DNA from: a virus
DNA: 32,241 nucleotides
Strand: one strand, 5' to 3'
Virus record (IMG/VR): IMGVR_UViG_3300023116_004433
Coordinates: 1-32,241 of that record
Below, one piece after another: positions 1 through 24,596 of this stretch. The translations under genes and the position numbers were made by a program. The first letter of the stretch is position 1. Every line of letters begins with the position of its first letter. A model generated the notes under the pieces. The model searched no databases and was not told where the DNA came from. It saw only the letters and a program-made list of their open reading frames with translations.

Positions 1-188
1 GCAGTGTTATAGTGATCATCTGGCAAATTAGCAACCCAAACGTGACTGCTATCTAAATCCATCAAACTGTTCACGCTGCCCATTTTGGTATTGCGTGTGT
101 AAAACTGTGTGACGTAATCATTGGCGCCAGCAACACGATCAATGATTCTTGCCCAACGTCCTCCACCTACTATACCGAGGGTACGCAC
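1..188 (-). CDS. Rossmann-fold NAD(P) oxidoreductase, Gfo/Idh/MocA-like (partial)
   Basis: The reading frame is open from a GTG at 186-188 to the window edge, giving 62 codons of an N-terminus. The first residues read RTLGIVGGGRWARII, a Gly-rich dinucleotide-binding turn after a beta strand, as at the start of Gfo/Idh/MocA sugar dehydrogenases. A later stretch with VWVANLPDDHYNT resembles the following strand-loop of that fold. The GTG is chosen because GGAG lies 7 bases upstream (196-199) and no ATG is available in frame. It overlaps the 3' end of the carbamoyltransferase gene by 19 bases, so it belongs to the same transcription unit. Family membership is inferred from the N-terminal motif only, and the catalytic half is outside the window. 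Such enzymes usually oxidise, reduce or epimerise sugars or cyclitols, which would fit the cassette. Another NAD-dependent dehydrogenase is possible. Confidence 0.6.
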   Translation of the reverse strand, partial: MRTLGIVGGGRWARIIDRVAGANDYVTQFYTRNTKMGSVNSLMDLDSSHVWVANLPDDHYNT

Positions 189-1675
189 ACATCTACTCCG
201 TATTTTTTAGTCCAACGAATTGCATCCTCTCTAGTGTTTACTAGAGGTTCGCCTTTGATATTGAGACTGGTGTTAAGCAACATAGGACAACCTGTATCCT
301 CATACCAACGTTCTAACAAACGTCTAATGCCATGTTCACTGCCAGCTGGCACAGTTTGTACTCTGCTGCTATTGTCATAGTGTATGATAGCAGGAAACTG
401 TTCTGGGTGTTTGCACTTTGCCACATACTGCATAAAGTCTCCTACTCTGCCCTCAAAGTATTCTTCTGCATGTTCTGCCAGTATCACAGGAGCAAACGGT
501 CTGAATGCTTCTCTGTGTTTGATTGTGTTTACAAGGTCCTTAACATCAGCTCCACGGGGATCAGCAAGAATACTACGGTTGCCAAGAGCCCTAGGGCCAA
601 ACTCAGCCCTACCAGATGCCACGGCTGTAATTTTTCTAGTGTGTAATTGTTCAAGTACTTTTTCAACGGGGTACTCTCCTTCTATGTTATGTCCAAGGAA
701 AGCGTGATCCATGTACATAAATTCTTTACGGTGTGCTAATACACAACCTATTGCACTGCCAGCATCGCCTGGATTAGCTGGTACATGTACATTTTTAAAA
801 AACAAACCTGCTAGTCGGTTTGCTACACAATTTAGTGCGCAACCTCCCACTAGTATAATGTTTTCATACTTGCCATCTGTCATATGATATGCACTGCGGC
901 ACAGTTCTACGAATATCTCTTCATAAATGCGCTGTACTGCCGCAGCGATGTCTGCATAGTCTTGAGGAGTGTTTAGATCAAGTCTCCAATCTAAGCAACC
1001 TCTGTGACAGTTCTTTTTAAATGTAGTAAATGGGTGATAACTTGTAGGTGTTTGTTCAATAAAGTCACGTTTTATAAGATCATAATATTTGTCAGGGTCG
1101 CCTATTGCAGCCATTCCCATGAGAATATATTCATGTTCTTGTGGCTTGAGTCCTATACGCTGTGTCATAGCACTGTACCATATACCCAAACTGTGAGGAT
1201 AGTTTTGACTCCACAGTTTCTTGAGCTTGCCCGAATCTCCGCTCCATATGCTCACAGTTTCCCATTCGCCTATGCTGTCAATTACCAATATCAATGCACT
1301 GTGCCAAGGACCTGTATAGTATCCATATGCTGCATGACTCAAATGATGACTAGTTGTAGTGCATTTAGGAGCGTTATTGATGAATTTGCGTATATATGTA
1401 GTAGGTGATTCTTTGCCGAGTAGTGCGTATTGCCCAGCACTAAACTGACGTGTCTTTTTAAGCAAAGGTTTTTCGTAAAAATATATTTTGTCGGGTTTTC
1501 CGTACAAATTCACAGCTTCTTCTATCAACAGTGGATCTAAGTTTTTGTCATTCTTGATTCTACTGTAGCGTTCGCTGTGTGCAGCAAACTCTAATCCCGT
1601 TTCACTAAACACAGCTAAACTAGCATCATGACTCATACCAGTCCAGCCCCAAGTTATTTTATTCAAGTTCGCCAT
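170..1675 (-). CDS. NodU/CmcH-type O-carbamoyltransferase
   Basis: This family transfers a carbamoyl group from carbamoyl phosphate, through carbamoyl-AMP, to a hydroxyl of a sugar or natural product in the cytoplasm. The 501-aa protein shows the expected order. There is an N-terminal HDAS (16-19) and HSERYSR (33-39) region, the metal-binding HHLSHA (110-115), the nucleotide-binding GGCALN (277-282) and NPGDAGSAIG (301-310), and a C-terminal domain with GRAEFGPRALGNRS (355-368), RPFAPV (392-397) and a LNTSLN motif near the end. All key motifs look intact, so it is probably active. It is somewhat shorter than the roughly 550-600 aa typical of bacterial members. The ATG start overlaps the nucleotidyltransferase gene by 17 bases, and the next gene starts inside its end. 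The family is clear, but the acceptor is unknown. The neighbouring glycosyl-, sulfo- and methyltransferases suggest a sugar or glycan hydroxyl. Confidence 0.93.
   Translation of the reverse strand: MANLNKITWGWTGMSHDASLAVFSETGLEFAAHSERYSRIKNDKNLDPLLIEEAVNLYGKPDKIYFYEKPLLKKTRQFSAGQYALLGKESPTTYIRKFINNAPKCTTTSHHLSHAAYGYYTGPWHSALILVIDSIGEWETVSIWSGDSGKLKKLWSQNYPHSLGIWYSAMTQRIGLKPQEHEYILMGMAAIGDPDKYYDLIKRDFIEQTPTSYHPFTTFKKNCHRGCLDWRLDLNTPQDYADIAAAVQRIYEEIFVELCRSAYHMTDGKYENIILVGGCALNCVANRLAGLFFKNVHVPANPGDAGSAIGCVLAHRKEFMYMDHAFLGHNIEGEYPVEKVLEQLHTRKITAVASGRAEFGPRALGNRSILADPRGADVKDLVNTIKHREAFRPFAPVILAEHAEEYFEGRVGDFMQYVAKCKHPEQFPAIIHYDNSSRVQTVPAGSEHGIRRLLERWYEDTGCPMLLNTSLNIKGEPLVNTREDAIRWTKKYGVDVCVPSV
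196..199 (-). promoter_or_regulatory. Ribosome binding site deciding a GTG start
   Basis: GGAG on the minus strand lies 7 bases before the GTG at 186-188. It supports the GTG as the start of the partial oxidoreductase gene, inside the end of the carbamoyltransferase gene. Confidence 0.5.
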
Positions 1676-2072
1676 CTTGTCTCATTTTTGCTCTAATTTT
1701 TGTAGCACTGATATCATGTATCTCTTTACCTAAATCATGTTGCGTAAATGTGTACCCAACACCACGACCATAACTGATATCTACAATGTTTGGGACTAGC
1801 ATGATTTCATATTCTTCGCCCAAGGTATAACCGTGTTCTTTTAATCCTTGTTCAATATTTCTTGCAACAGTTCTGTAATCAAAAGGGTTATCATCTTGTG
1901 TCACTGTGCGTCCTGCGCCAGCATCAGTACCTACAATACCACCTACGTCTCTTATCATTATACATACTTGTCCGGTTTCCGCTAATGCACGTTTGAATAG
2001 TTCTGTGTGTCCATCGTGCCATGGTTGCCAACGTCCTAGCATTTGTGCTGTAGGTTTTTTCCAATCAAACAT
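1659..2072 (-). CDS. Small HxGH-type nucleotidyltransferase (cytidylyl-/adenylyltransferase-like)
   Basis: The 137-aa protein carries GRWQPWHDGH at 13-22, the (T/H)xGH nucleotide-binding signature in the GRFQPxHxGH form of the NMN adenylyltransferase branch. It also has ISATKIR at 121-127, the matching C-terminal ISxTxxR motif. Such enzymes transfer AMP or CMP from the NTP to a phosphate acceptor and release pyrophosphate. I chose the ATG at 2070-2072. A longer TTG start at 2097-2099 is possible but lies deeper inside the upstream gene, whereas the ATG overlaps its stop by 8 bases (ATGTTTGA) with a purine-rich GGAAAG just before it. It sits directly after a P-loop kinase gene, so the pair may phosphorylate and then nucleotide-activate one building block. 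NMN adenylyltransferase for NAD salvage is the main alternative. Confidence 0.85.
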   Translation of the reverse strand: MFDWKKPTAQMLGRWQPWHDGHTELFKRALAETGQVCIMIRDVGGIVGTDAGAGRTVTQDDNPFDYRTVARNIEQGLKEHGYTLGEEYEIMLVPNIVDISYGRGVGYTFTQHDLGKEIHDISATKIRAKMRQDGELE

Positions 2073-2490
2073 TATTTCTTTCCATCCAACGTTGTACAAT
2101 TTTTAATAGCACTTCATGTGTATCACTAAACCAGCCTTCTACATGATAATCACAATGTGGTGGTTCTACAAACATAGCATTTGTATCTTCAAATCTACCT
2201 TCTTTGATTGTGTCCATCCAAACAGTAAAGTCTGGATTGAACTCCATACGTGCTTGTTCTGTAGGACACACAAAATCTGCTACTGCTACCTTACCTGCAC
2301 GTACAACACCATCAGCTAGATAGCGCATACGTGCTGCTTGACGCATACGTCCTTCGGGTGTAAAATCCCAATCGTTGTAATGACTGCGTATTTCGTCTGC
2401 ATTAATATGTACACCTCTTATTAAGTCAGCAAAAGGTTTTGCTAGTGTAGTTTTTCCGCTACCCGGTAATCCGAATATCAAAATTTTCAT
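2065..2490 (-). CDS. APS-kinase-like P-loop kinase
   Basis: The 141-aa protein opens with a Walker A motif, GLPGSGKTT (7-15). It continues with the block HINADEIRSHYND, then a segment with RMRQAARMRYLADGVVRAG, then VADFVCPTEQARMEF. This order matches adenylylsulfate (APS) kinases of the CysC type: the D(G/A)D/E-x-R substrate loop, the helix after it, and the strand ending in xSP-xxxxR. CysC makes PAPS, the donor for sulfotransferases, and three sulfotransferase-like genes lie in the same unit. No ATP sulfurylase is visible, and the protein is shorter than bacterial CysC (about 200 aa), so it could instead phosphorylate another small alcohol. It overlaps the preceding gene by 32 bases and the following nucleotidyltransferase by 8. 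The P-loop kinase call is firm, and the substrate is inferred. Confidence 0.82.
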   Translation of the reverse strand: MKILIFGLPGSGKTTLAKPFADLIRGVHINADEIRSHYNDWDFTPEGRMRQAARMRYLADGVVRAGKVAVADFVCPTEQARMEFNPDFTVWMDTIKEGRFEDTNAMFVEPPHCDYHVEGWFSDTHEVLLKIVQRWMERNNV

Positions 2491-2998
2491 TGTTTACATC
2501 CTCGATCAATGTATAGCTGATTGACTCTTTTTGTAAAAGGTTTAGTAATCTTATTTCACTGCCCTTCATTACTGCGTCAATTTCACCATTGTTTATAAGT
2601 CTTTCTAAATAATCTTTTTGTGGTCTTGTAAAATTAGTATTGAATCTTTTTTGTATTTTATCTCCAACAGGTGTATCAAAAATTCCTTTGCTCCACACTA
2701 ATTGATTGTTACTAGCACCATAAAATTTAAAATTATCTCTGGGACTATCCCATTCAGCAAAATAATTTTTCCATACTCTGTTATAAAAACACAAGTTAGG
2801 TTCATTGGCATTTTGAATTATCACATGGTCATATTGTTTAATTGTACTATCTTCGATGTGTGTTGTCAATAGATCATAAATGTTTATGTAGTTTCCTGTT
2901 GGTATAACATACACCGTGTATTCATGTTCTTGAGGTAAACGATCGAACCAGGTTTTTGTTGGGTTACTATTTTTATCGCCGTATATTAGTATTTTCAT
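2459..2998 (-). CDS. Degenerate SGNH-hydrolase-like protein (third paralogue)
   Basis: The 179-aa product is not recognisable by itself but aligns by eye with the two proteins encoded just upstream. It has an opening beta strand ILIYG (3-7), then YTVYVIPTGNYI (against YTVYACPGGGIV in its neighbour), then DHVIIQNANEPNLCFYNR (against DYVLYQTTFEPRLCF). The block I serine motif GCSFS of the paralogues is replaced by GDKNS, and the C-terminal block V histidine motif is absent. It is therefore likely a shortened, catalytically dead or repurposed copy. The ATG start overlaps the upstream gene by 4 bases (ATGA), and the gene runs 32 bases into the kinase gene. The function is unknown. A structural or partner role with its two paralogues is a guess. 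Confidence 0.75.
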   Translation of the reverse strand: MKILIYGDKNSNPTKTWFDRLPQEHEYTVYVIPTGNYINIYDLLTTHIEDSTIKQYDHVIIQNANEPNLCFYNRVWKNYFAEWDSPRDNFKFYGASNNQLVWSKGIFDTPVGDKIQKRFNTNFTRPQKDYLERLINNGEIDAVMKGSEIRLLNLLQKESISYTLIEDVNNENFDIRITG

Positions 2999-3879
2999 TG
3001 ATATTTCCTCAATGCTTTGCGAACATGATTTCCAATTATTTTGTTTCCTGATTCCTTGTAGTGACCCACAAACAAGTCACTTCCATCTCTACTCACCTCT
3101 GGATCAATCCATCCTAGTACTTGATATCGTTTCTTCATCCAAATTCCCATAGTGTCGGCACCTTCTCCCCAAGCATAAGGAACATCCAACACTATACCAT
3201 CATCAAATTGTGGTGTGTTTTCTTCTAAAAACTTTCCATATTTAAAAATATACAATGGTATATTGAGTTGTTTAAGTCTAAAATTTAACAATGCTGCACA
3301 GCTATTCATAACGTGTCTATTTGTCATACCAGAAAATAAACGACGAACCCATTCTCCATCTTCAGATTTTATTGCAAAGTTTCCTCCTAAATTTGCATTA
3401 TTGCCATAAGAATTAAGAAAATTTATTATTCTTCCTTTTTCGCTTCCTTGTGTGATATACATGTCAATGTTGTCAGGCCCGGGTTCACTGCCACGAAGTC
3501 CGTCCATTGGATTTTCATATATTTGATGTCTATTGCTGCCTGGATCTGTAAAACACAGTCTAGGTTCAAAAGTGGTTTGATACAGCACATAGTCGTATTG
3601 TTCTAGCAGTCCTTCTTGATACAATTCTTCTACCACTCGACTGTGTTGAACTATGCCTCCACCTGGACACGCATAAACTGTGTAGTGATATTGTGGATCT
3701 AACCACTTGATCCAAGGTGTTTGCCAAACTATCTGTTCTCTTCCGACTCCGCTGTCAATTTTTTTAGTAGTGCCGTCTGGCTGTTTTACATAATGATATA
3801 AAACATTCGAGTCATCCCATATATAGCTGCCTGCACTAAAGCTGCATCCTAAGACTAATATACGTTTACGATAATTCAC
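2995..3879 (-). CDS. SGNH/GDSL-hydrolase-like protein
   Basis: The 294-aa protein begins with RILVLGCSFSAGSY. The GCSFS (11-15) after a hydrophobic strand is the block I position of SGNH esterases and acyltransferases, where GDS is usual. A Gly-rich segment (YACPGGGIV) and a strand with VLYQTTFEPRLCF follow. Near the C-terminus VGHYKESGNKIIG looks like block V, with the catalytic His and no clear preceding Asp. SGNH proteins hydrolyse or transfer acyl esters on sugars and lipids. The start is a GTG at 3877-3879 with GAGG 8 bases upstream, overlapping the preceding paralogue by 14 bases. It is the middle gene of a three-gene paralogous run. The fold assignment is by motif pattern. The activity and substrate are inferred and could be O-acetyl addition or removal on the product of this cassette. 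Confidence 0.75.
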   Translation of the reverse strand: MNYRKRILVLGCSFSAGSYIWDDSNVLYHYVKQPDGTTKKIDSGVGREQIVWQTPWIKWLDPQYHYTVYACPGGGIVQHSRVVEELYQEGLLEQYDYVLYQTTFEPRLCFTDPGSNRHQIYENPMDGLRGSEPGPDNIDMYITQGSEKGRIINFLNSYGNNANLGGNFAIKSEDGEWVRRLFSGMTNRHVMNSCAALLNFRLKQLNIPLYIFKYGKFLEENTPQFDDGIVLDVPYAWGEGADTMGIWMKKRYQVLGWIDPEVSRDGSDLFVGHYKESGNKIIGNHVRKALRKYQ

Positions 3880-4603
3880 TATTCAATCCTCGTTTAAGCA
3901 TCAGACCTAATTCTCGATTTCCTTGACGAGTAAAATGATAAGGAGCGTCATTGACAAAGTTATGGTATTTCTTTTTATACCACAATGTGTCATATGCTGA
4001 TTTCACTTTTAAATACTTTATATATTTATGTGGGTATTTAATGCCTGTCAGTGACCAACTGTATGTGGGTATTCCTGTGTCTTGTGCTAGTCTATCCAAA
4101 TGACTAGCACTGGCTTGATTCAAATATTCCCATGCTGAATCATTATGATTCATGTGATTCAACCAATTATTAATGCCTGGTTGCCAATCAAAGCCAAAGT
4201 GTTCACTGATACGTTTTTGGGTTACTAACATACTACCCAACTTGGTATGAAACACAGGGTCTATAACCCACCCCCAGATGTTCTTTCTGTGTTCCATATA
4301 ATCAAAATCAAATTGTATTGTTATTCTTGGACGAAATCCTTCTTGTATGAATATAGCACTGTAATCACTTAAACGGTTGTTTTGTGTTAACCATTGTAAA
4401 CACTGACCATATGCCATCATACCGCCACCTGGGTGTGCATAAACAGTGTAGTCTCTCTCCCATTCATCATAGTAACAATATTCAAAATCAATGTCTTCTG
4501 CTGCATAGTCTCCGCCATCTTTTGCATTATCAGTTAAACTGTAATCACGCAGTGTGTAACTGGCAATACTAAAACTACAACCCAAGACTAATATTTTATC
4601 CAT
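3866..4603 (-). CDS. SGNH/GDSL-hydrolase-like protein
   Basis: The 245-aa product starts KILVLGCSFSIASY, with the candidate nucleophile in GCSFS (8-12). It then has YTVYAHPGGGMM and a strand IFIQEGFRPRIT that matches the EPRL segment of its neighbour. It ends with DAPYHFTRQGNRELG, which fits the block V D-x-x-H arrangement better than either paralogue, so this is the copy most likely to be active. The ATG overlaps the upstream radical SAM gene by 8 bases (ATGGATAA), and the next paralogue starts 14 bases before its end. There is no signal peptide, so the protein should act in the cytoplasm. The family call is by motif. An acyl-ester or acyltransfer role in decorating a sugar is inferred from context. 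Confidence 0.78.
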   Translation of the reverse strand: MDKILVLGCSFSIASYTLRDYSLTDNAKDGGDYAAEDIDFEYCYYDEWERDYTVYAHPGGGMMAYGQCLQWLTQNNRLSDYSAIFIQEGFRPRITIQFDFDYMEHRKNIWGWVIDPVFHTKLGSMLVTQKRISEHFGFDWQPGINNWLNHMNHNDSAWEYLNQASASHLDRLAQDTGIPTYSWSLTGIKYPHKYIKYLKVKSAYDTLWYKKKYHNFVNDAPYHFTRQGNRELGLMLKRGLNSELS

Positions 4604-5831
4604 TTGCTTGCTCCCAAAATGTTGTCATGTTTCCATAATCTGCCCATTCTTTGAACTCAGTCAGTCTAGGATCTTTGAGTACTTGTAAAAAGTTTTCGTG
4701 TTCAGGATGATTCTTTTTCCAAACTGCACGTTCGTCATGATCATCCATGTGACCCCAATCTAGTATTAGACTAAAAGTAGCTCTGCTATCTTTACGACCA
4801 GGATCAACCCAATTGTTAACAACTAATTCAAGGTAGTCAGGTATCTCACGGTAGTTAGAAGTTTGTACTACAAAACTAAAATTCATAAAAAAGTCTCTGT
4901 AACTATCATACTGATCATACACAAAGTTGATATTTTTTATTAATTGATCCCAGTCACCTCCTAATCGTGTTGAGTTTTCGTATGTGTATTTTGTAGCTGC
5001 ATCCATACTGAATATTATACTTCGAATATTGCTGTGTATTTTACTCATACTGTTCCATATCTTAGGAGTAAGCATTACTCCGTTGGTTTGCATATGAATC
5101 CATATATTGGGTCTATCTGTCAGATCTAATGTTTGTAATTTTTCTCTGAATATTTTACTGCCGAAAGGATCGCCACCGCCTGTGATCCACCATTCATAAT
5201 TGTGATCTTTGCGGGCATTTAGTAATTCGTCAAACAGTTTGTCGTTTAATTTTTTTCTTTGTTCATATACTTCTCCACTGGTGTGCATAATCTTTTTAAC
5301 ACGACAACTAGGGCAATAAAGATTGCAACTTTCGTCTGTGCCTATCTGAACTTGATTAGGCATCTTATCAGCCACTGTGCTTTTATTTTTCACAGCGTCG
5401 ATTTCCCAATCTGTTAGTCTGTGATACATTCCAGTGAGATTTGGATTATCCAAATCTTCAGTATTACGCATTTGTTCCATTTTTGATATTTCCATCAAGT
5501 CTCCACGCTGTATACGTGGACAGGTTTCATGCTTGCACAAAGGCCAATTTTTATTTTCATAAATTTGTGCTCTGACTTTTTGAGCTCTAGGTCCGTTCCA
5601 TATTTCTTCCATTGATTGAAAATTTAAATCACCAATAATAACCGGTAACCAGTTAGGACAACACATAAAAACACGACCTGCTTGTGTTATTTCTGCTCTC
5701 TGGAAAAAATGTTCACAGTAATATCCATTGAGGTCTTTAGGTTTACTAGCAATCTCGCTGTTGTCAACATCTTTTCTTTGAGAAAATTTAATTAAAGACG
5801 GCGTTGCATCTGCTGCAGAGTTCGATGTCAC
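4596..5831 (-). CDS. Radical SAM enzyme with N-terminal twitch/SPASM-like domain
   Basis: The 411-aa protein has an N-terminal cysteine domain (C39, C57, C58, C99, C104) with the phrase NFQSMEEIWNG, typical of SPASM/twitch auxiliary iron-sulfur domains. The radical SAM core follows, with CNLYCPSC (C169, C173, C176). The SAM-binding GGE motif reads GGGDP (218-222), with Asp in place of Glu. Such enzymes cleave SAM to a 5'-deoxyadenosyl radical and act on peptides, sugars or small molecules. The GTG start is well supported: a full AGGAGG lies 9 bases upstream (5841-5846) and no ATG occurs before the auxiliary domain. It overlaps the preceding radical SAM gene by 44 bases and the following SGNH-like gene by 8. 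The substrate is unknown. Confidence 0.9.
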   Translation of the reverse strand: MTSNSAADATPSLIKFSQRKDVDNSEIASKPKDLNGYYCEHFFQRAEITQAGRVFMCCPNWLPVIIGDLNFQSMEEIWNGPRAQKVRAQIYENKNWPLCKHETCPRIQRGDLMEISKMEQMRNTEDLDNPNLTGMYHRLTDWEIDAVKNKSTVADKMPNQVQIGTDESCNLYCPSCRVKKIMHTSGEVYEQRKKLNDKLFDELLNARKDHNYEWWITGGGDPFGSKIFREKLQTLDLTDRPNIWIHMQTNGVMLTPKIWNSMSKIHSNIRSIIFSMDAATKYTYENSTRLGGDWDQLIKNINFVYDQYDSYRDFFMNFSFVVQTSNYREIPDYLELVVNNWVDPGRKDSRATFSLILDWGHMDDHDERAVWKKNHPEHENFLQVLKDPRLTEFKEWADYGNMTTFWEQANG

Positions 5832-6579
5832 AGCGTCTACCCTCCTCTAGTATTTTTTTGTATTCAGAATATTTGTGATTGTTCCAAACATCTACAGGAC
5901 TTGTTAGCATGTCAACTTTGCCCACAGGATTGCGTTTACCAAAATCCCAAGGACACAAATACATAGTGCCGTCTACGTAAACAAATGCTTCATCTACTAC
6001 TTTTTTACAAGGCAATGCTAGACTTGTAGTTTGACTTTCCCAAGGATGCTCGTACAATTCTGTAATAACGGCACAACCTGGTCTAATGTTGTTCCAGTAG
6101 TCTTGAAAATCTTGTTGTTCTTGTTCAGTATTTGGCAAGTTAATCATACGCACTTGTATATCTATCTCAGGATGATTTTTTACAAATCGTGTAACGTTTT
6201 CATATGTTCTATCAAAACTCACGCCTCTGGTTTCGTCAAATGTTTCTCTAGTAAACCCATCAATACTAAAACGTATAGTATCAATATAAGGTGCAATTGC
6301 TAGTTCTGTTTTAGGAGTCATAGGCTCGCCGTTACTGTGTAATTCAACTGTGGCAGTAGGGTCTTGTTTAATATATCTACATATGTCTGGCATGCGTACA
6401 TCTACCAATGGATCACCCAATCCAAATGGTCTGTAAGTTATACCCATGCCTCTGGTGTCATTGACGATCTTGTGTATAAGATCAATGTCCATGTGTTCTT
6501 TGGGAATTAAATGAGTTGGACAAAACCAACACTTGGCATTACAAAAAGTTGTTGTTTCTATTTGTAAGTATTTGAACAT
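5788..6579 (-). CDS. Radical SAM enzyme with C-terminal SPASM domain
   Basis: The 263-aa enzyme has the cluster motif CNAKCWFC (C13, C17, C20) right at the N-terminus. The GGE-type motif is GLGDPL (53-58), with Asp where Glu is usual, and a LHSNGE segment follows near 80-85. The C-terminal SPASM domain contains C191, C209 in YLCPWDFG, GKVDM, VWNNHKYSEYKK, and a final C250/C255/C258 group. This layout is that of SPASM enzymes that modify peptides or act as sugar or small-molecule dehydrogenases and epimerases. It starts with ATG, overlaps the aminotransferase gene by 22 bases, and overlaps the next radical SAM gene by 44. It is about 80-100 aa shorter than peptide-modifying members, without an obvious peptide-recognition (RRE) region. 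The substrate is unknown. Confidence 0.92.
   Translation of the reverse strand: MFKYLQIETTTFCNAKCWFCPTHLIPKEHMDIDLIHKIVNDTRGMGITYRPFGLGDPLVDVRMPDICRYIKQDPTATVELHSNGEPMTPKTELAIAPYIDTIRFSIDGFTRETFDETRGVSFDRTYENVTRFVKNHPEIDIQVRMINLPNTEQEQQDFQDYWNNIRPGCAVITELYEHPWESQTTSLALPCKKVVDEAFVYVDGTMYLCPWDFGKRNPVGKVDMLTSPVDVWNNHKYSEYKKILEEGRRCDIELCSRCNAVFN
5841..5846 (-). promoter_or_regulatory. Consensus ribosome binding site for a GTG start
   Basis: AGGAGG on the minus strand is 9 bases before the GTG at 5829-5831. It lies inside the end of the upstream radical SAM gene and fixes the start of the downstream one. Confidence 0.75.
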
Positions 6580-15118: not shown

Positions 15119-16404
15119 TCATAGTGTCTCCACAATTGATAAAGTTCTGGAAAACTGTCAACAAAGCTGGTTTTTCTCATACGATCAATACTGCCAATAT
15201 ATCTATTGAGAGCATCCCACTTGTCGCTCCAATCCTCGCTGTTCATAAAGTCTACTACACTTCGCAATTCTTGTACTTTGTTTTTATCAGGATACTTTTC
15301 AATAAACTTGAGTAGTTTAACTGTGACTTGTTCTTTGATTTCTTTGGGCAATACTTTGCTGCACAGATACTGCGGAAAGTGTAGTATGCCTGGATGGAAC
15401 ATGCCTTGATGATCATGTATGCCAATCTTTTTATAGTCTTTGGCAAATAACCATTCTGCAAAGTCTGGCAAATACCAAATATTAAGTGCGCTCACTGTAC
15501 ACAAGACTTTGCCAACAATGTGTGGGGGAGCATTTTCTACTTTGTCTAATGTTTTTTCAACTGTTGACCAATCTGTAGGATAACGTAGCCAATGGTTTTG
15601 ATCACCCATGCCATCAATACTCAGCATAAGTTCTACAAATTTAAAGTTACTCCACAGCTCGATAATATCATCTGGCATGATAGTACCGTTGGTGTGATAA
15701 CGCAATTCAATATTTTGTGCGTGTCCACTTTCTACACACTTTTTCAAAAAGCGTTTGTGATTTTTTAGATACAGTGGCTCGCCGCCTGCAAAAATAAAGT
15801 GACGCATGTTAGGCAACAATGGTTCGATTTCGTCAATCCAAAACTCATCATCAGCTGCCCACTCAAAACTGTTTTGTTTGTGATCTTGAATTTTCCATTC
15901 CCAATCGTGCTTGACTTCGCCTTCGCTATCAGCAGCAATTGTTTCAGCAGCCTTGACCCATTTGCTTGAATCTGTAGGTCTACACATCACACACTGTACA
16001 TTACAGGTATTACCCAAACGCAAATCCAATGTGATAACTCCTTGGTCTAAGTGTCCATCTTCTCGAGTACTGGCAATGAGATTGTCAATGTATTCTCTGC
16101 CTAGTTTTTTACTCCAGAGATTGTTTTCATTCATTCTATGACTGCGAATACCACTGGCTTCTTCTTTCCAACAATGTCTACAAGCAGGAAGTGCTTTGCC
16201 TGCTATCATGTCTTTGCGAGCGTTTTTAAAATAGTAACTGTTCCAAACAGCGTCAATGGTAGCATTGTTTAGATTGAGTCTGTCATCGTCTGTTGGCTGC
16301 GCTAAACAACACAACAAACTTTTACCATTGGTATATGTTGCCATGTGTATCCACGGAAGTATACAAAATTTACTTCCGTGATCTTCTAGAAAATCTTGAG
16401 CCAT
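15115..16404 (-). CDS. Twitch-domain radical SAM enzyme
   Basis: The 429-aa protein starts with a twitch-type auxiliary cluster domain. FCILPWIHMATYTNG is followed by C32 and C33, an AVWNS segment, and CRHCWKEE (C75, C78). The radical SAM core follows, with LDLRLGNTCNVQCVMC (C134, C138, C141) and FAGGEPLYLKN (205-215). SIDGMG appears later in the barrel. The N-terminal placement of the twitch domain and the LDLRLGNxCN phrase identify the 'twitch domain-containing radical SAM' family, seen in phages and bacteria and of unknown function. It is a close paralogue of the next gene upstream (16404-17744), and their stop and start codons overlap by one base (TAATG). A heteromeric pair or sequential steps on one substrate is plausible. 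Confidence 0.93.
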   Translation of the reverse strand: MAQDFLEDHGSKFCILPWIHMATYTNGKSLLCCLAQPTDDDRLNLNNATIDAVWNSYYFKNARKDMIAGKALPACRHCWKEEASGIRSHRMNENNLWSKKLGREYIDNLIASTREDGHLDQGVITLDLRLGNTCNVQCVMCRPTDSSKWVKAAETIAADSEGEVKHDWEWKIQDHKQNSFEWAADDEFWIDEIEPLLPNMRHFIFAGGEPLYLKNHKRFLKKCVESGHAQNIELRYHTNGTIMPDDIIELWSNFKFVELMLSIDGMGDQNHWLRYPTDWSTVEKTLDKVENAPPHIVGKVLCTVSALNIWYLPDFAEWLFAKDYKKIGIHDHQGMFHPGILHFPQYLCSKVLPKEIKEQVTVKLLKFIEKYPDKNKVQELRSVVDFMNSEDWSDKWDALNRYIGSIDRMRKTSFVDSFPELYQLWRHYE

Positions 16405-17744
16405 TAAATCATCTTTCTTATTGCTTGATATAAGTCATCGTCAACAATACTAAAATTAGTATTGCGCTGTCTGTCCCATACTTCAGTCATCTTAACAAAG
16501 TCTGTTAGATTTTCTTTCCAGTTGTCCAACTGTTCTTGGTCCAAATAACCAATGATACCATCTACACTGTTTTTGATAAGCCAACTCTTTTCATATAACA
16601 TACTACATTCGTTTTTGAATTCAATCAATCTATTTTTAGCATCTTGTCTCATTTCAACAGGCAAGTTTCTAACATCTAAATAGTTAGGATGTGTGTTAAT
16701 CAGTATGTCAACTCCTATGTGTTTCCAGTCGCTATCTGAATAGTATTCGTTTGTAAGATCATTTGCTAGATACAATATCTCGTGTATACGATTTAGATTA
16801 TAGATTTGCAGTACAGGAGTAATATTACTGTTTACATTTGGCAAATCCAGCATACTGCGATAGTTACGTTGAATAATATCCCAACTCTTTGTGCCTCTGA
16901 TGAATTCATTTACAACACCAACACCATCTAAACTTGCATTGAGATCAACACTTTCAAATTTGCTGATACTGTCCAAAAACTTTTGATTTGCGTTTGTGCA
17001 GTTTGTGTTCATAAACACATTGATGTGACTACTGTGTCCTTGTTCTGCTGCTAGATTCAAAAACTCCATGTTGTTTTTGATCATAGTAGGCTCACCACCA
17101 GTCATGTAAACTTTTCTTAGATTAGGCATCCATTCGTAAATGTTATCCCAAAAATCATCAGCATCAAACTTTTCTCTATACTCAGTACTGTTGATCCAGT
17201 CTGGGCGTTTGCCATATGTTTTTTCTTGGATGCGAGTATAATCTTCTTCTACATCTGTTAGTTTGGAATCTTCTTTGGCAATAGTACTACTGTTAAAACT
17301 GTTGCACATTCTACAACTGAGGTTACACAAGTTGCCTAATCGCAAATCCAAGTACAACGGATCGTGTTCTTCCAATGCAAAATCATTAGCATAGCTAGCT
17401 TCTATACGTTCATGAATAGCTTCTTCACCAATTCGGCGTTCCCACTCGTCATTGTGCATTTGCCTAAAACTTTTTTTGCCGACTTCTTCTTGCAAGTAAC
17501 AGTGCTTACAACTTTCAACACGCTCACCTTGCAACATTGCCATGCGAATGTCACGCATGTCTTTGCCGTTCCATGCTTCTTTTAGTGTTGTTTTGCTGAT
17601 GTCTAATATTTTACCGTCGTCGCCTCTGAGCACACTGGGTTTTGCGATACAGCAAAAATCAATGCTACCGCTGGTATTAACCATCATACTTAACCAAGGG
17701 TAAACACAAAATGTTTCCCCGTAAATTTCATCCCATTCAGCCAA
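16404..17744 (-). CDS. Twitch-domain radical SAM enzyme (paralogue)
   Basis: The 446-aa protein has the same layout as its downstream neighbour. FCVYPWLSMMVNTSG, C31/C32, EAWNG and CKHCYLQEE (C79, C82) form the auxiliary cluster domain. LDLRLGNLCNLSCRMC (C140, C144, C147) is the SAM cluster site, and YMTGGEPTMIKN (213-224) is the SAM amino-group motif. The start is a TTG at 17742-17744, overlapping the glycosyltransferase stop by 8 bases, with a GGA-type ribosome site about 8 bases before it. No in-frame ATG occurs before the essential N-terminal cysteine, so the TTG is needed. Compared with its paralogue it carries a longer insert between the cluster motif and GGEP. The substrate is unknown. 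Confidence 0.92.
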   Translation of the reverse strand: MAEWDEIYGETFCVYPWLSMMVNTSGSIDFCCIAKPSVLRGDDGKILDISKTTLKEAWNGKDMRDIRMAMLQGERVESCKHCYLQEEVGKKSFRQMHNDEWERRIGEEAIHERIEASYANDFALEEHDPLYLDLRLGNLCNLSCRMCNSFNSSTIAKEDSKLTDVEEDYTRIQEKTYGKRPDWINSTEYREKFDADDFWDNIYEWMPNLRKVYMTGGEPTMIKNNMEFLNLAAEQGHSSHINVFMNTNCTNANQKFLDSISKFESVDLNASLDGVGVVNEFIRGTKSWDIIQRNYRSMLDLPNVNSNITPVLQIYNLNRIHEILYLANDLTNEYYSDSDWKHIGVDILINTHPNYLDVRNLPVEMRQDAKNRLIEFKNECSMLYEKSWLIKNSVDGIIGYLDQEQLDNWKENLTDFVKMTEVWDRQRNTNFSIVDDDLYQAIRKMI

Positions 17745-18717
17745 TTGAATCTTCCACTTGGTCTTCTCTTACCATTGCACCCAGTCTTGCTGGATTTTTG
17801 TAAACTCTTTTAAAGAACTTACTACCGCTTTTTCCCAAGTCACTGATTTCTAAGTCTAGTATACCTTTGATCTCTTCTCCAAGTTCAACTGTTTTAGCTT
17901 TGAGTTTATCGTAGTCCCACATCATTCCAGTGTTGACACACATTTCAGTACCGCCTTCGAACTCAGGAAACAGTTCTTCTTTGAAGTAATTGCTGAGCCA
18001 ATCAAAGTCACGTACATTTTTCCAATCCCAACTGTGACGATCAATATTTGTCATTTTAGCACCAAGTCTAGCACCATAAACTGCCCAAAGACCATTGGTA
18101 ACATCTTCGCCTACACTCATCCAAACCAACAAACGTTTGTAGTTTTCATGATGAATTTTTTTAAGTTCTTTTGGATCAACTACATCACCGCCTTCTAATC
18201 CCATCTTAACGCCTTCACGGAACCCAGCCCGCCATGCTTGTAGAGGCGAACCATTGTTCATCACATCACAGTATACATTGTTCATTTGTACATAGTGAAT
18301 GTTCCAGCAAAAATCTACTTGAGCACGTTTATCACTTTCAGGTGCTGCTTCATGTGTACGCATACGCTCAACAACATGTTTAGGCCAACATTTGATACCA
18401 CCATTGCCATACACCAATCCGTTGATTGTGTTTTTACCTGCCCAACTTATAACATCGTCTTGTCTTATACGATCCATATCAACTTCAATATTGAAAAAAT
18501 CTTCTCTGACAATATTGTCTGCATCAATGGTCACAAATCTGTCAGTTTCACTGAGTTCTGCAGCGGCCTTGTGTGCTGCATCACTGCCCCATACTCCGTG
18601 ACTGCGTTTAGCCCAAGGGCATTTTTCTAATAGATCATTGTAATTGTGTTCAGCATTAGGCTCGTCATAACTGATAAAAACAATGTCAAATTCATTTATT
18701 GGTACTAGGTTAGACAT
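17737..18717 (-). CDS. Glycosyltransferase-like protein with DxD motif
   Basis: The 326-aa protein opens with FDIVFISYDEPNAEHNYNDL, then CPWAKRSHGVWGSDAAHKAA, then RFVTIDADNIV (60-70). The last has the acidic DAD triplet (65-67) used by GT-A glycosyltransferases to hold the metal and nucleotide sugar. This family resembles glycosyltransferase-like proteins that I recall from marine T4-like phages. The C-terminal half contains many Trp and Asp residues and no membrane segment. It overlaps the upstream duplicated-domain gene by 8 bases and the downstream radical SAM gene by 8. A nucleotide-sugar-dependent transfer is likely. The acceptor could be a host glycan, a lipid carrier, a virion protein or modified DNA. 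Confidence 0.8.
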   Translation of the reverse strand: MSNLVPINEFDIVFISYDEPNAEHNYNDLLEKCPWAKRSHGVWGSDAAHKAAAELSETDRFVTIDADNIVREDFFNIEVDMDRIRQDDVISWAGKNTINGLVYGNGGIKCWPKHVVERMRTHEAAPESDKRAQVDFCWNIHYVQMNNVYCDVMNNGSPLQAWRAGFREGVKMGLEGGDVVDPKELKKIHHENYKRLLVWMSVGEDVTNGLWAVYGARLGAKMTNIDRHSWDWKNVRDFDWLSNYFKEELFPEFEGGTEMCVNTGMMWDYDKLKAKTVELGEEIKGILDLEISDLGKSGSKFFKRVYKNPARLGAMVREDQVEDSIG

Positions 18718-19720
18718 TTAATAAGTCCTCTTCGATTATGTCAAATGTGATATTTCTATTATCACCAACTGCTATAAAGTTACAGTTTTCTAAGTTACTA
18801 TTTGTTGTAAGATAGAATTCATTGTTAAACCCTACATCAGTTATTGGGATATGCAATGGTTCCATCAATTGATTTGGATTGTTTTTCTTAACCACATACA
18901 GTTTTAAGTTTGTGTAAATTCTATGTTCATGCGGATTTAAGAAATTGCTTTTTAACCAGTAGTGTTCATCACGTTTGATAATAGTAAACGTAGTGTTCAC
19001 TTCTTGTTGTTTTTTACTTATCACAAGTTCATTTCTGCGTTTATCGCCTCGACTTGTAAAGTCAGCATTTACAAAATGACTTTTACGTTTTATACCATAG
19101 TTTTTGAAAATCTTTTTAGTTAGTATGTTTACTTCGCCTAGTCCGCAAACATTGCGCACATCACTTAGATCATACATAACAAAACCTTTTACGATCAGTT
19201 CTGCTGGATCAAGTTCTACAGTGTCTATCAGAAAGTTAGGATCGTTTTCTTTAATGAGATACAGTACAATCTTATCGTACTTTCCACCTTTTTCAGGGTT
19301 AATACTAACATCTCTAAACTGCCTTTTACCTGTCATTTTGTACAGTGTTTCTTGGCTAAAGTTTACTTCCATCTTCCAACTGTTGATGTAAAAAACAATG
19401 TTAACATCACTTTGTTTATCTGTAACAGGAACACTTGTTAAAAAGTTTTCACTGTCTCTGATACGCAGTACATCACCTCTTTTAATAAGTTTGTATCCTT
19501 CACTCAGTTCAACAACTGAATACTTTTTAGGATCTACAACACCCATTAAAATTTGTCTAGCATCTTCATCTTCTGTTTTAAGATAAGGATGACGTATACG
19601 TTCCTTGGGCTTATTGGTTACAGTAATAATGTCGCCTGTTTCTTCATCGAAGTACACGCACCATTTTACTTTACGTTTAGCCTCTTTCTTGTCTTTCAGT
19701 AAGACGGGTTCTAAAGACAT
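18710..19720 (-). CDS. Unknown protein with an internal duplication
   Basis: I cannot name this 336-aa protein. It contains two related segments about 121 residues apart: LYLIKENDPNFLIDTVEL (153-170) and LYVVKKNNPNQLMEPLHI (274-291). Each is preceded by a beta-rich stretch and followed by a strand with an aromatic residue, so the protein probably has two copies of a small beta domain. The N-terminus (KVKWCVYFDEETGDIITVTN) looks like an additional beta hairpin. Such beta-rich proteins are common among virion proteins, and it may be a virion protein lodged among glycosyltransferase genes or an acceptor for them. Its ATG lies 44 bases inside the end of the upstream glycosyltransferase gene, an unusually long overlap. 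No catalytic motif is visible. Confidence 0.78.
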   Translation of the reverse strand: MSLEPVLLKDKKEAKRKVKWCVYFDEETGDIITVTNKPKERIRHPYLKTEDEDARQILMGVVDPKKYSVVELSEGYKLIKRGDVLRIRDSENFLTSVPVTDKQSDVNIVFYINSWKMEVNFSQETLYKMTGKRQFRDVSINPEKGGKYDKIVLYLIKENDPNFLIDTVELDPAELIVKGFVMYDLSDVRNVCGLGEVNILTKKIFKNYGIKRKSHFVNADFTSRGDKRRNELVISKKQQEVNTTFTIIKRDEHYWLKSNFLNPHEHRIYTNLKLYVVKKNNPNQLMEPLHIPITDVGFNNEFYLTTNSNLENCNFIAVGDNRNITFDIIEEDLLNV

Positions 19721-20546
19721 CTATTACTCTTTGATTTAAAAAATTTTCATCGCTGTAATGGATAATTCCATTATTCATCACGCTGTTTTCAATTTGTATT
19801 TTACCGTTATCACTGATCCAGACGTTCAATAGATCAGTCCAGCCTTCTGGCATTTCTTCGTGCCACACTCCTTGATTCTGTGTGTTAATATCATAATGAT
19901 TTCCTAGAAAATACTTAACTTCGTCTTCCATGTCAACACAATGCGTTATCAAGTTACACAGTATATTTTTGTTAAATGATTCTGGCTTTTTTTCTGTAAA
20001 AAATTTGTTATAAACACTGCGCCAATTTTGCATCACAGGGTCTGCCATTTTAAACCATTCTGCTGCTTCTTTTGTTTCACTGCGCCAATAAATCATGTTG
20101 TTGTAATTTTTAGGCAATTTATATGCATCTTCGAAATCAAACTTAGGCCAAGGAGCAGCTGGTAAATTTCTAAATGTAAACGCATTACCGGGCATAGCAA
20201 TATCGTAACTTTCTAAACTTTCCCAAAGATCGTCAACGTCAACGTTGTGTAATATTGTATCAGCATCTAAATAAATTGTGCGCTCAAAAGGAGTACAATG
20301 ATACAACTGCCAAAGATTCATGCCATGAAAGCCATCTTTGTATGCTGTATTACCGTATGGTAGTTCAACAATATAATCAAATGCATGATGGTATTCTTCA
20401 GGAACAGTGTCGCTTTTTTCTTGGTCAACTACAAGGCAAAATTCTGCTTCAGGATCTGACAATTTCAAACTTAGTGCAAGTCCGTAACAGTATTTGATTC
20501 TATCTTTTTCAGTGTTGATCCCTAGTGAAATAAATCCTCTATTCAT
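19677..20546 (-). CDS. Glycosyltransferase, GT-A/GT8-like with DxD motif
   Basis: The 289-aa protein has an N-terminal strand GFISLGINTEKDRIKYCYGLA and then FCLVVDQ. It also has TPFERTIYLDADTILH (85-100), with the metal-binding DAD triplet at 94-96, and later DIAMPG. This order is that of GT8-like nucleotide-sugar transferases. It is paralogous to the gene just upstream, which has the matching TPFERTLLIDTDFLV phrase. The ATG overlaps the upstream stop by 4 bases. It has no signal peptide or membrane span, so it should act in the infected cell's cytoplasm. The sugar donor and acceptor are unknown. It runs 44 bases into the gene of the duplicated-domain protein. Confidence 0.85.
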   Translation of the reverse strand: MNRGFISLGINTEKDRIKYCYGLALSLKLSDPEAEFCLVVDQEKSDTVPEEYHHAFDYIVELPYGNTAYKDGFHGMNLWQLYHCTPFERTIYLDADTILHNVDVDDLWESLESYDIAMPGNAFTFRNLPAAPWPKFDFEDAYKLPKNYNNMIYWRSETKEAAEWFKMADPVMQNWRSVYNKFFTEKKPESFNKNILCNLITHCVDMEDEVKYFLGNHYDINTQNQGVWHEEMPEGWTDLLNVWISDNGKIQIENSVMNNGIIHYSDENFLNQRVIDVFRTRLTERQERG

Positions 20547-21460
20547 GAAGTTGCTCCTTCAAAACTCTGTCTGATAAAATCAATTTGTCTATCAAATGCA
20601 CGTTTATTCATAAGATGTAAATTATCTCCACTGTACTTCATAAGTATGTTTTTCCATGGTTCTTGTCTATTGTGTTTTAAAAATATAACGTCATCTAAAT
20701 TGTTAAACTTAACAATGTCATCTTTTTGATCCATGTTCAATAAAGGTGTACCTAAAAAGTCATGTACAAAATCGTCGTTGTTTAATCCATTGAACAAGTG
20801 TGCAGCGATACTTACACAAAAGTCTGTTCTAAACAGTGCTGGTGGGAATTGATACAACAAACTGTAGTATTCCCAATTGTCTTTTACATGTGCCCATATA
20901 TCAAAGAACAATTTACTAAGAGGACTTTGATCAAAATAAACCACTGTACTCCACCAATGATTGATTCCACTGGTGTTCAGTGTTACTTCACTTTGATAAG
21001 GTATTTCGCCACCCAAGTATTCTGCATATCTATGCAATCCAACTTCGAAATCACTATCAAACACATAGTCATAAAAATCATTCATAACTAAGAAATCTGT
21101 ATCGATCAATAGTGTGCGTTCAAACGGTGTGTTATTAAATACTCGGTGTTTATTAGTGTTTGTAAATTTTGCATTAAAATCAGTCCACGGACTATCGTGA
21201 TGATTTCGTATGTTTCTATCTGCTTCACTACCTGGATCGTCGATAACAACATAATCAAATACAGCATCAACATTTTTTTCGCCAATGCTTTGTTTCATCC
21301 AGCCATACGAACCATCGTCAGTTATTAAAGCTACTTGATTGTTTTTCATATTTCGTTTAACAAACTGAGCACATACATAAGCAAACTTTACATAATCCAA
21401 CTGTTCGTTGTTGTAGGCAAACATACATATACCATTGCCTTTTTTAAGTGTCTTTGCCAT
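20543..21460 (-). CDS. Glycosyltransferase, GT-A-like with DxD motif (paralogue)
   Basis: The 305-aa protein has an opening strand ICMFAYNNEQLDYVKFAYVC, then ALITDDGS (44-51), then TPFERTLLIDTDFLV (111-125), with the DTD triplet at 120-122. It is recognisably related to the protein of the next gene, which shares the TPFERT-x-x-x-D-x-D phrase. The pair likely arose by duplication and may add two sugars in sequence. The ATG overlaps the stop of the small upstream gene by one base (TAATG). The family is firm at the level of GT-A fold glycosyltransferases, and the specificity is unknown. It is the first enzyme gene of the long coupled cassette after the promoter at about 21.85 kb. Confidence 0.82.
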   Translation of the reverse strand: MAKTLKKGNGICMFAYNNEQLDYVKFAYVCAQFVKRNMKNNQVALITDDGSYGWMKQSIGEKNVDAVFDYVVIDDPGSEADRNIRNHHDSPWTDFNAKFTNTNKHRVFNNTPFERTLLIDTDFLVMNDFYDYVFDSDFEVGLHRYAEYLGGEIPYQSEVTLNTSGINHWWSTVVYFDQSPLSKLFFDIWAHVKDNWEYYSLLYQFPPALFRTDFCVSIAAHLFNGLNNDDFVHDFLGTPLLNMDQKDDIVKFNNLDDVIFLKHNRQEPWKNILMKYSGDNLHLMNKRAFDRQIDFIRQSFEGATS

Positions 21461-21807
21461 TACCAGTCCATTAAACTTTTAATATTTCTTGCTTTTTTAA
21501 TTTTATCCAACTGAACTTTGTATTCATTAGCTGCTTCTGTATAAGAACTCAACAGTGTATCTAACAAATCATTCAAATCTTCAATTTCAATGGGGTTTTC
21601 TTTAGTATCTAAAATAATACTAGATTCTTTACCACTATCTATTAATGCCTTAACAAAAGAAATAGTTTGTGGATTTGCGTGGAATACTCCGCTTTTATAG
21701 TGTATTGTGGTTAGTACTGACATACGTTGTCGTACTGTTCTCTTCTGGTTACTCAAAGTAATTCGATAGTTTGCGAATTCTAGAGCACGTTCGAGTCTCT
21801 CATCCAT
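21460..21807 (-). CDS. Small conserved-type phage protein, unknown function
   Basis: This 115-aa protein is not recognised by function. It is charged and mostly helical by eye: an N-terminal helix MDERLERALEFANYR, a polar middle with a short strand segment, and a C-terminal amphipathic helix ending in a basic cluster (KIKKARN) and LMDW. It is the first gene after the promoter in the 59-base gap, with AGGAG (21816-21820) 8 bases before its ATG. It is transcribed with the glycosyltransferases, and its stop overlaps the next start. The opening resembles small proteins I recall near tail genes of marine T4-like phages, which suggests a virion or assembly role, but this is weak. It could also be a regulator of the cassette. 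Confidence 0.75.
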   Translation of the reverse strand: MDERLERALEFANYRITLSNQKRTVRQRMSVLTTIHYKSGVFHANPQTISFVKALIDSGKESSIILDTKENPIEIEDLNDLLDTLLSSYTEAANEYKVQLDKIKKARNIKSLMDW

Positions 21808-21833: not shown

Positions 21834-21863
21834 ACTATAACTTATTTATGTAGGGTTTGTCAA
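21834..21863 (-). promoter_or_regulatory. Sigma70-like promoter for the biosynthetic cassette
   Basis: On the minus strand a perfect TTGACA (21858-21863) is followed after 18 bases by TATAGT (21834-21839), a good -35/-10 pair in the only gap upstream of the 25-gene run. Transcription would start about 10 bases before the ribosome site of the 115-aa gene. A T4-late-like CATAAATA (within 21842-21850) lies in the spacer, so the site could serve both host sigma70 (early) and the phage late sigma factor. Which is used cannot be told from sequence. Confidence 0.6.
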
Positions 21864-21878
21864 CGATTAAAAATCGTT
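21862..21878. repeat. Perfect 7-base palindrome overlapping a stop codon and a -35 box
   Basis: AACGATT-AAA-AATCGTT (plus strand) can form a 7-pair hairpin with a 3-base loop in RNA of either strand. It covers the stop codon of the 393-aa structural gene (21867-21869) and touches the TTGACA -35 box. No run of U follows, so it is not a clear intrinsic terminator. It could be a weak terminator, an RNA-end protector, or an operator at the promoter. Confidence 0.5.
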
Positions 21879-24577: not shown

Positions 24578-24596
24578 AGCTCTTTTCCATTTGTAG

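Follow-up and report, generated by a model that had tools for sequence, protein, structure and literature searches.

The virus record IMGVR_UViG_3300023116_004433 of IMG/VR, which we analysed over its entire length of 32,241 bases (hereafter the window; both of its ends are record ends), carries a cassette of 25 genes behind a structural region. Our favoured, still tentative reading is that this cassette is an exchangeable, serotype-like biosynthesis locus that may tailor a glycan in the cytoplasm, the likeliest acceptor being a virion protein. Genes are numbered g1 to g29 from the right, g1–g4 being structural or tail-region genes and g5–g29 the cassette. By comparison of related phage sequences, g5–g9 is the only fixed core of the locus, and the cargo behind g9 is replaced in many close relatives.

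Gene order, fixed core and exchangeable cargo

All 25 open reading frames (ORFs) of the cassette lie on the minus strand, from position 21807 to the left edge, and with the longest starts they overlap at each of the 24 junctions by 1–53 bases. This bears out the first-pass annotation, made by a model from the letters and ORF translations of the window, which had described 25 gap-free genes with every junction overlapping. The 53-base overlap is due to the TTG start of g20; an inner GTG with a Shine-Dalgarno-like site cuts it to 8 bases, and because those 8 bases remain there is no intergenic base in the cassette. The same genes were found in NZGL01000008.1 (C3), a 108-kb phage contig in a gammaproteobacterial metagenome-assembled genome (MAG), retrieved by scanning bacterial and archaeal genomes with a g9 alignment. 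C3 holds 25 of the 25 cassette genes in window order at 39–85% amino-acid identity; g21 was recovered by tblastn (77%), and g8 is in two pieces beside ambiguous bases, the second, C-terminal piece matching at 34%. Overlap occurs at 20 of the same 24 junctions in C3, compared to 10 of 36 in its structural part (counted by eye, strand switches included), so junction overlap in the cassette exceeds chance. The genes had been proposed to form one pathway inside a phage, an idea that scattered or unlinked genes in relatives would contradict and that our results partly support. In C3 the genes are neither, and the shared order strongly supports one linked locus in a T4-like phage, although many close relatives replace everything behind g9.

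The window edge truncates the cassette, and C3 continues for about 22 kb further with similar genes. The C3 homologue of g29 is a 785-residue fusion of a MocA oxidoreductase and a radical S-adenosylmethionine (SAM) enzyme, which agrees with the initial call of g29 as an oxidoreductase. It is followed by a nucleotide-diphospho-sugar transferase, an NAD-dependent epimerase, a g9 paralogue, a 2-oxoglutarate oxygenase and more radical SAM ORFs, and further on by a B12-binding/radical SAM ORF and a TauD-type ORF, reaching about 10 kb. The whole C3 locus measures about 46 kb; uncultured giant phages, frequent in virus metagenomes, devote up to that length to one biosynthesis locus. Among IMG/VR contigs, two repeat parts of the window at about 100% identity (g1 into g15 and g1 into g10), and a third carries g1–g11 in the same order (g2–g11 at 62–84%, g1 at 51%). 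Scans of viral contigs with g23 alone and with g17 alone returned no relatives. As a side observation, phage-like contigs are binned in bacterial MAGs (NZGL01000008.1 and NZGL01000017.1, loci L187 and L188; PBPT01000016.1, locus L189), a contamination worth flagging.

At least 599 IMG/VR stretches match g9, and the best 80 of these matches formed our locus survey. Upstream sequence of 3.6 kb or more was available for 64 of them; the order tail gene–g5–g6–g9 was observed in 61 of these 64 (exceptions L143, L151 and L162), and g5, g6 and g7 were found in 62, 63 and 56, respectively. Conservation behind the core was assessed in 32 hand-picked loci. For the 62 pairs with g9 identity of at least 70%, the mean share was 0.76 of the seven upstream genes versus 0.17 of the eight downstream genes, with at most one downstream gene in common in 40 pairs; L094 ends two cargo genes in, which undercounts its pairs. 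The window and C3 share 8/8 downstream genes, whereas each shares 0/8 with L098 at g9 identities of 82% and 86%, respectively; likewise, L104 and L127 share 6/7 at 76%, and L103 and L104 2/8 at 87%. From these comparisons, cargo types appear to move between phage backbones, as in bacterial serotype loci.

The cargo of other loci was sampled as the first nine downstream ORFs per locus on the same strand and of at least 100 amino acids (141 of 149 ORFs, L174 left out; some may fall beyond the cassette). Radical_SAM was matched by 67 of the 141 proteins, SPASM by 24 and NF033640 by 71 at E 0.001 (19 loci). Nearly half of the sampled cargo proteins are thus radical SAM enzymes, and many N-terminal-twitch enzymes of this class become available with a common genomic context. 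Separately, L139, L140, L136 and similar loci have the g5–g9 core, a second g9 and little or no nearby radical SAM match. Very long ORFs of 1301–1447 amino acids (L052:5280-9623, L037:5520-9659 and L039:2799-6704) match the g9 family and may contain several g9-type domains.

We took a score of 9.7 or more out of 12 as a sigma70-like promoter and made the loci non-redundant by ungapped identity of the upstream DNA. On this basis 39 of 59 loci carry such a match before g5, where mononucleotide shuffles predict 1.8. The corresponding counts elsewhere were 0/53 for g6, 2/59 for g7, 8/73 for g9 (3.1 expected), 3/31 for g2, 2/40 for g3 and 0/29 for g4. A looser first threshold and filter gave 43/63 for g5, 0/64 for g6, 2/63 for g7, 12/81 for g9, 2/35 for g4, 3/41 for g3 and 1/15 for g2, with 14/315 in shuffles. 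The T4-late-like motif TAAATA lies upstream of g2 in 27/31 loci (4.1 expected), of g3 in 21/40 (3.4) and of g5 in 21/59 (6.1), nine g5 upstream regions having both motifs. The cassette promoter match of the window, at 21863–21834, recurs in C3. Given the sigma70-type match before g5 and TAAATA before g2 and g3, the cassette is apparently transcribed on its own and not merely as the tail of a late fibre operon. In the g4–g5 gap of L125, L126, L135, L158 and L169, a terminator-like inverted repeat followed by T was noticed by eye.

Enzymes encoded by the cassette

The features of the window are listed from right to left, with strand in brackets; percentages given for C3 refer to its homologue.

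24600–32240 (−): g1, large virion structural protein, running off the right edge; phrog_10938, 605 bits; tblastn to structural proteins of PA5oct, SCTP-2 and CBB, 24–29%
24597–24604 (−): T4-late-promoter-like TATAAATA before g2; TAAATA upstream of g2 as counted above
23978–24670 (−): g2, structural/tail-region protein, an inner ATG being the likely start; phrog_11259 (unknown function); close to the g1 homologue in both PA5oct and SCTP-2
23048–23965 (−): g3, tail-fibre-like; phrog_6427 (unknown), phrog_19602 tail fiber, others
21867–23048 (−): g4, protein of the fibre region whose Tyr-Gly loop varies in length; resembles PA5oct gp360 (annotated ESI-MS/MS)
21834–21863 (−): sigma70-like promoter of the cassette, TTGACA-18-TATAGT; consensus match, repeated in C3
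21460–21807 (−): g5, conserved 115-aa protein, first cassette gene, no assigned function
20543–21460 (−): g6, glycogenin-like (GT8-type) glycosyltransferase; family profile A2 against glycogenin, E 1e-5
19677–20546 (−): g7, glycogenin-like (GT8-type) glycosyltransferase; profile shared with g6
18710–19720 (−): g8, conserved-position protein, no assigned function; poor model (predicted local distance difference test, pLDDT, 57)
17737–18717 (−): g9, GT-A-fold hallmark gene, probably a glycosyltransferase, last core gene; model pLDDT 86; D65/D67 invariant in 25 sequences
16404–17744 (−): g10, N-terminal-twitch radical SAM enzyme; NF033640, 359 bits, cut-off 170
15115–16404 (−): g11, N-terminal-twitch radical SAM enzyme; NF033640, 393 bits
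14129–15118 (−): g12, no assigned function; conserved in C3, 57%
13117–14142 (−): g13, radical SAM enzyme; PF04055; C3 79%
12572–13120 (−): g14, no assigned function; C3 44%; no Pfam/PHROG family at E 0.01
11742–12572 (−): g15, sulfotransferase-like (weak); PF03567, 21.5 bits, cut-off 22
11011–11766 (−): g16, sulfotransferase-like (weak), g15 homologue; PF00685, E 0.0097
9590–11014 (−): g17, MORN repeats and an unclassified C-terminal part; in Pfam the MORN part alone matches
8922–9590 (−): g18, FkbM methyltransferase; PF05050; TIGR01444 above cut-off
7579–8925 (−): g19, radical SAM enzyme with N-terminal extension; PF04055
6558–7631 (−): g20, HisC-like pyridoxal phosphate (PLP) aminotransferase (class I), likely start 45 bases inside; PF00155; TIGR01141 below cut-off
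5788–6579 (−): g21, radical SAM/SPASM enzyme; Pfam; C3 77%
4596–5831 (−): g22, SPASM/radical SAM enzyme; Pfam; NF033640, 70.5 bits, below cut-off
3866–4603 (−): g23, homologous to g24 and g25, SGNH-like by motif alone
2995–3879 (−): g24, homologous to g23 and g25, SGNH-like by motif alone
2459–2998 (−): g25, one of three mutual homologues
2065–2490 (−): g26, P-loop kinase like adenosine 5'-phosphosulfate (APS) kinase; PF01583, 30.0 bits, cut-off 21.1; PDB 2yvu, E 9.3e-8
1659–2099 (−): g27, small nucleotidyltransferase-like; PF01467, 17.8 bits, cut-off 21
170–1675 (−): g28, NodU/TobZ-type O-carbamoyltransferase; PF16861, PF02543; PDB E 2.2e-46; C3 75%
3–188 (−): g29, beginning of a MocA-like oxidoreductase, truncated at the window edge; the longer C3 homologue is fused to a radical SAM domain

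No tRNA was detected in the window, an Rfam search of it returned no match, and blastn of bases 1–8000 found no match among phage records.

Many of the family assignments made from visible motifs hold up in profile searches. All six candidate radical SAM enzymes (g10, g11, g13, g19, g21 and g22) score above the Pfam cut-off; g10 and g11 also exceed the curated cut-off of 170 for NF033640 (N_Twi_rSAM), which g22 does not reach. The radical SAM cysteines (CxxxCxxC) and the GGEP motif are conserved without exception in all 19 twitch proteins that were aligned. The carbamoyltransferase (g28), the aminotransferase (g20) and the APS-kinase-like kinase (g26) fall into the expected Pfam families. The nucleotidyltransferase call for g27 finds weak matches, to PF01467 below the cut-off and to nicotinamide-nucleotide adenylyltransferases. 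Successive parts of a single PHROG family, phrog_10255, are matched by g26 and g27; an activation route of the 3'-phosphoadenosine 5'-phosphosulfate or phosphoramidate type is conceivable for the pair. Of two methyltransferases named at first, FkbM-type g18 stands, and no methyltransferase match was found for the second, g17. Three proteins had been called sulfotransferase-like: g15 (E 0.00029) and g16 match weakly, both below cut-off, and for g14, which matches no family, the label is unsupported. The label SGNH-like for g23–g25 comes from a motif with no Pfam match, and the three are homologous to one another. A defence role of the viperin type was rejected, the NF038283 cut-off of 180 lying well above g13 (54.9 bits) and g19 (45.3 bits), with partial PADLOC pVip matches.

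Three glycosyltransferases had been suggested as well. For g6 and g7 the profile evidence points to a glycogenin-like type: glycogenins were the sole PDB matches of their family profile below E 0.001, the best covering positions 5–108 of 272. The g9 profile found no match among PDB sequences, and its assignment therefore rests on the fold. The g9 model has a pLDDT of 86 and a predicted template modelling score of 0.87, and its residues 4–171, the part tested, align with the GT-A enzymes B4GALNT1 (Z 11.1, 3.1 Å over 140 residues), WrtF (9.9), ThuS (9.8) and SunS (9.3), Z differences under 1 counting as tied; Foldseek scores were weak (best E 3.8e-4). From the model, g9 is probably a glycosyltransferase, with a fold that nucleotidyltransferases have in common.

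Proposed product and competing explanations

By a hydropathy heuristic, 0 of the 25 cassette proteins in the window has a membrane segment. Of 281 cargo ORFs from 29 loci, 10 have one or more segments and 4 have two or more, and in the C3 cassette stretch one ORF of 51, an edge ORF, scores for a segment. In the control, the O-antigen locus of E. coli K-12, the polymerase wbbH and the flippase rfbX scored 6 and 9 segments, respectively. With neither a flippase-like nor a polymerase-like membrane protein recognised by hydropathy, a free-standing surface polysaccharide is an unlikely product, and what remains is a cytosolic acceptor (virion protein or DNA) or a soluble product. Of the outputs listed in the first-pass annotation, autonomous host-surface remodelling is disfavoured on these grounds, while DNA hypermodification, virion glycosylation and a small-molecule product stay in consideration. 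The decorated sugar postulated there fits the glycosyltransferases and the sugar-type decorations of the window; in other phages radical SAM enzymes make up most of the cargo, and the families listed include few sugar genes, so we infer the sugar and do not observe it.

In the mechanism that we tentatively favour, the transferases of the g5–g9 core would work in the cytoplasm, assembling a short glycan on an acceptor from basic nucleoside diphosphate sugars supplied by the host. The cargo would make and tailor the glycan sugars by radical SAM oxidation or epimerisation and by adding amino, methyl, carbamoyl and perhaps sulfo groups, and each phage would thereby bear its own decoration. The likeliest acceptor would be a virion protein and, by position, a tail-fibre protein, and diversifying selection from receptors or defences would explain the swapping. 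A fixed core with exchangeable cargo leads to a clear, testable prediction of phage chemotypes.

One candidate acceptor site is a Tyr-Gly loop of g4 (window about 22218–22247), whose length varies among close relatives, including L100, L104 and L105, with the rest conserved. At least three YG-type units in a row occur in 9 of 10 close g4 relatives (all but L094). The 15 more distant hits have no such run, although L113 carries a Gly-Gly-Tyr repeat. The loop is a possible acceptor of the glycogenin-like transferases. It may equally be a receptor-binding loop akin to the glycine-rich loops of T4-type adhesins. In a more specific version, g6 and g7 would glycosylate the tyrosines of the (Tyr-Gly)n loop, g9 would extend the chain, and the swappable radical SAM cargo would yield virion serotypes with chemically distinct tail glycans. 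Because the distant g4 hits have no YG run, another acceptor would be needed in those phages, which lowers the chances of the Tyr-Gly version, and we regard it as distinctly improbable. If true, a virus would carry, in its tail glycans, an enzymatic equivalent of the O-serotypes of bacteria.

Several observations weigh against cytoplasmic glycan tailoring of a virion protein. The glycan product and its acceptor are hypothetical, and the promoters are consensus matches, not measured starts. A 12-of-12 promoter match lies inside g1, and promoter- and terminator-like sites in the window itself show no excess over shuffles. A promoter of sigma70 type points to expression separate from that of the late tail genes. 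This would disfavour virion decoration, an argument softened by the 21 of 59 g5 upstream regions that also carry TAAATA. The g9 fold also aligns with the nucleotidyltransferases IspDF (Z 10.2) and MobA (Z 9.1), so a sugar transferase is not required. Sugar genes are scarce in the sampled cargo, with one NeuB and one UDPG_MGDP_dh among 141 proteins (25 of 31 families listed). No above-cut-off NF033640 match was found in 4 of 14 long records, and a radical SAM match lies behind g9 in 46 of 80 loci, many of which are short. Cargo is kept in some close pairs (L154–L139 8/8, L113–L123 7/8, L098–L100 5/7). Finally, the fibre does not visibly track the cargo, g4 being 59% identical both to C3, with the same cargo, and to L098, with other cargo.

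The first alternative is that the locus remodels the host surface against superinfection, its glycosyltransferases altering the O-chain during infection, as proposed for pelagimyophages. The sigma70-type promoter would fit pre-late expression, and the authors of PMC7029224 argue this way for genes of GT8 type, many of which occupy a comparable region. However, host export machinery would be required, for the hydropathy counts given above disclose no flippase- or polymerase-like protein, and two of the four cargo ORFs with two or more segments are matches, by position or listing, to a family of desaturases or of vitamin transporters. We consider this alternative unlikely.

Next comes a soluble small molecule, aminoglycoside- or peptide-like, acting on the host, its defence systems or competitors. 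Tailored natural products are typically made with carbamoyl-, amino- and methyltransferases alongside radical SAM twitch enzymes. The locus has no export or obvious acceptor genes, and radical SAM proteins prevail in the cargo of other phages, beside single matches to ACPS (phosphopantetheinyl transferase) and SnoaL. Against such a product, the core adjoins tail genes in 61 of 64 loci, and the families listed (25 of 31) include no non-ribosomal peptide synthetase, polyketide synthase or precursor of ribosomally synthesised and post-translationally modified peptides, a search that small unannotated precursors would escape. On balance this is a rather doubtful account.

The locus might also hypermodify phage DNA, placing sugars and radical-SAM-tailored groups on bases as protection from restriction. 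Known DNA hypermodification pathways comprise cytosolic enzymes, among them glycosyltransferase, radical SAM, PLP and kinase genes with early-type expression, all of which speaks for this account. The locus adjoins fibre genes, however, and no DNA-binding or base-hydroxymethylating enzyme is recognised in the window cassette. A thymidylate-synthase family was found in 4 of 9 records searched, and in none of the phage records of 250 and 345 kb (possibly fragments); the four comprise three phage records, two with identical terminases, and one hit on another contig of the MAG, a weak hint. We therefore rate DNA as an improbable target.

The least probable explanation is a hypervariable landing site gathering unrelated, horizontally acquired genes with no joint pathway: it would account for cargo that varies widely among many close relatives, but not for 25 of 25 genes ordered alike in two phages (g8 alone interrupted, beside ambiguous bases), overlapping starts at 24/24 and 20/24 junctions or sampled cargo dominated by one gene class.

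Related phages and known systems

The g1 gene has homologues in PA5oct, SCTP-2 and CBB, and no cassette genes occur in the flanks of 15–20 kb examined in these phages. The window has no terminase; among 20 long records sharing g9 or the g19-type radical SAM gene, nine yielded one, and these are mutually 52–100% identical. The two of the nine compared with phages were closest to PA5oct (58.2% and 54.5%), and the related phages are therefore probably jumbo phages near Arenbergviridae. Searches of 50,697 phage records by tblastn with three g9 homologues gave no match, nor did one g5 query against the same records; g9 and g5 serve as markers that find such loci fast in metagenomes. The Vibrio phages QD01 and K566 carry radical SAM genes, with no sign of the window arrangement in the 21 kb examined. 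As cultured phages with several such genes (L233 and L234), they are a possibly tractable model for phage radical SAM chemistry.

Homologues of g9 (34–37%) also occur in long contigs of the Roseobacter group and other Alphaproteobacteria (L198, L199, L204, L205, L209, L211, L214 and L223), several of them from isolates; L198, L199 and L204 have a neighbouring ORF of one unassigned family in common. Inspected by eye, the g9-like genes of Ruegeria, Tateyamaria, Cribrihabitans and others show no clear polysaccharide context. The N_Twi_rSAM clusters of Bdellovibrionota MAGs resemble the relatives of the window in having many NF033640 proteins per stretch, with g9 homologues beside such proteins elsewhere in these genomes. 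Unlike in the window, no g5–g6–g7 core or tail gene was matched in the Bdellovibrionota stretches L201, L212, L230 and L231. Two of these MAGs (G029 and G030) have 22 and 33 twitch radical SAM family matches, and 13 above-cut-off matches lie within 30 kb of one contig (L230 and L231; G030:C1 742001-779000), adjoining an ORF that is amidinotransferase-like by eye; a similar-looking ORF is present in phage locus L011.

Bacterial O-antigen and capsule serotype loci resemble the window locus in combining a conserved flank with exchangeable sugar-tailoring genes. They differ, with the E. coli K-12 rfb/wbb control as reference, in that the window locus lacks a flippase- or polymerase-like membrane protein by hydropathy.

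Moraphages, like the window phages, are jumbo phages from aquatic metagenomes, and putative glycosyltransferases form four of their core orthogroups (PMC12619734). They differ in being described as distant relatives of marine-sediment huge phages with mostly Bacteroidota hosts, and the text of PMC12619734 contains the term radical SAM 0 times. A virome study of Tasman Sea phages reports that radical SAM and glycosyltransferase genes are prominent there (PMC7150976). In the literature collection searched we found no paper that brings radical SAM enzymes together with glycosyltransferases of jumbo phages, or with phage tail fibres and sulfotransferases, and nothing closer than the systems compared here was seen among the titles listed.

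The closest known system is the host recognition cluster (HRC) of pelagimyophages and cyanomyophages, which is likewise a hypervariable island with tail-fibre genes, glycosyltransferases and radical SAM genes (PMC7029224). In pelagimyophages, T4-like marine phages, the HRC has a mean length of 44.6 kb, and GT8 is the commonest glycosyltransferase type; radical SAM cassettes are added between two similar genomes, and the island is interpreted there as changing the host surface. The HRC is placed downstream of a large virion protein, together with tail fibres, a position found in the window and C3, with a tail gene upstream in 61 of 64 loci, and hypervariable content between relatives is found here too. 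It also lies between VrlC and the neck gene gp14; inspection by eye of the initial 9 kb of C3 revealed no neck gene. Unlike pelagimyophages, the window phages are near PA5oct, their locus is led by the fixed g5–g9 core with its own sigma70-type match, and radical SAM dominates the sampled cargo. Whole-cargo replacement occurs here besides gradual change, whereas PMC7029224 favours gradual divergence for its compared pair. To the known island the present analysis adds the fixed core with its promoter match, the exchange of whole cargo and the lack of a match among the isolates searched.

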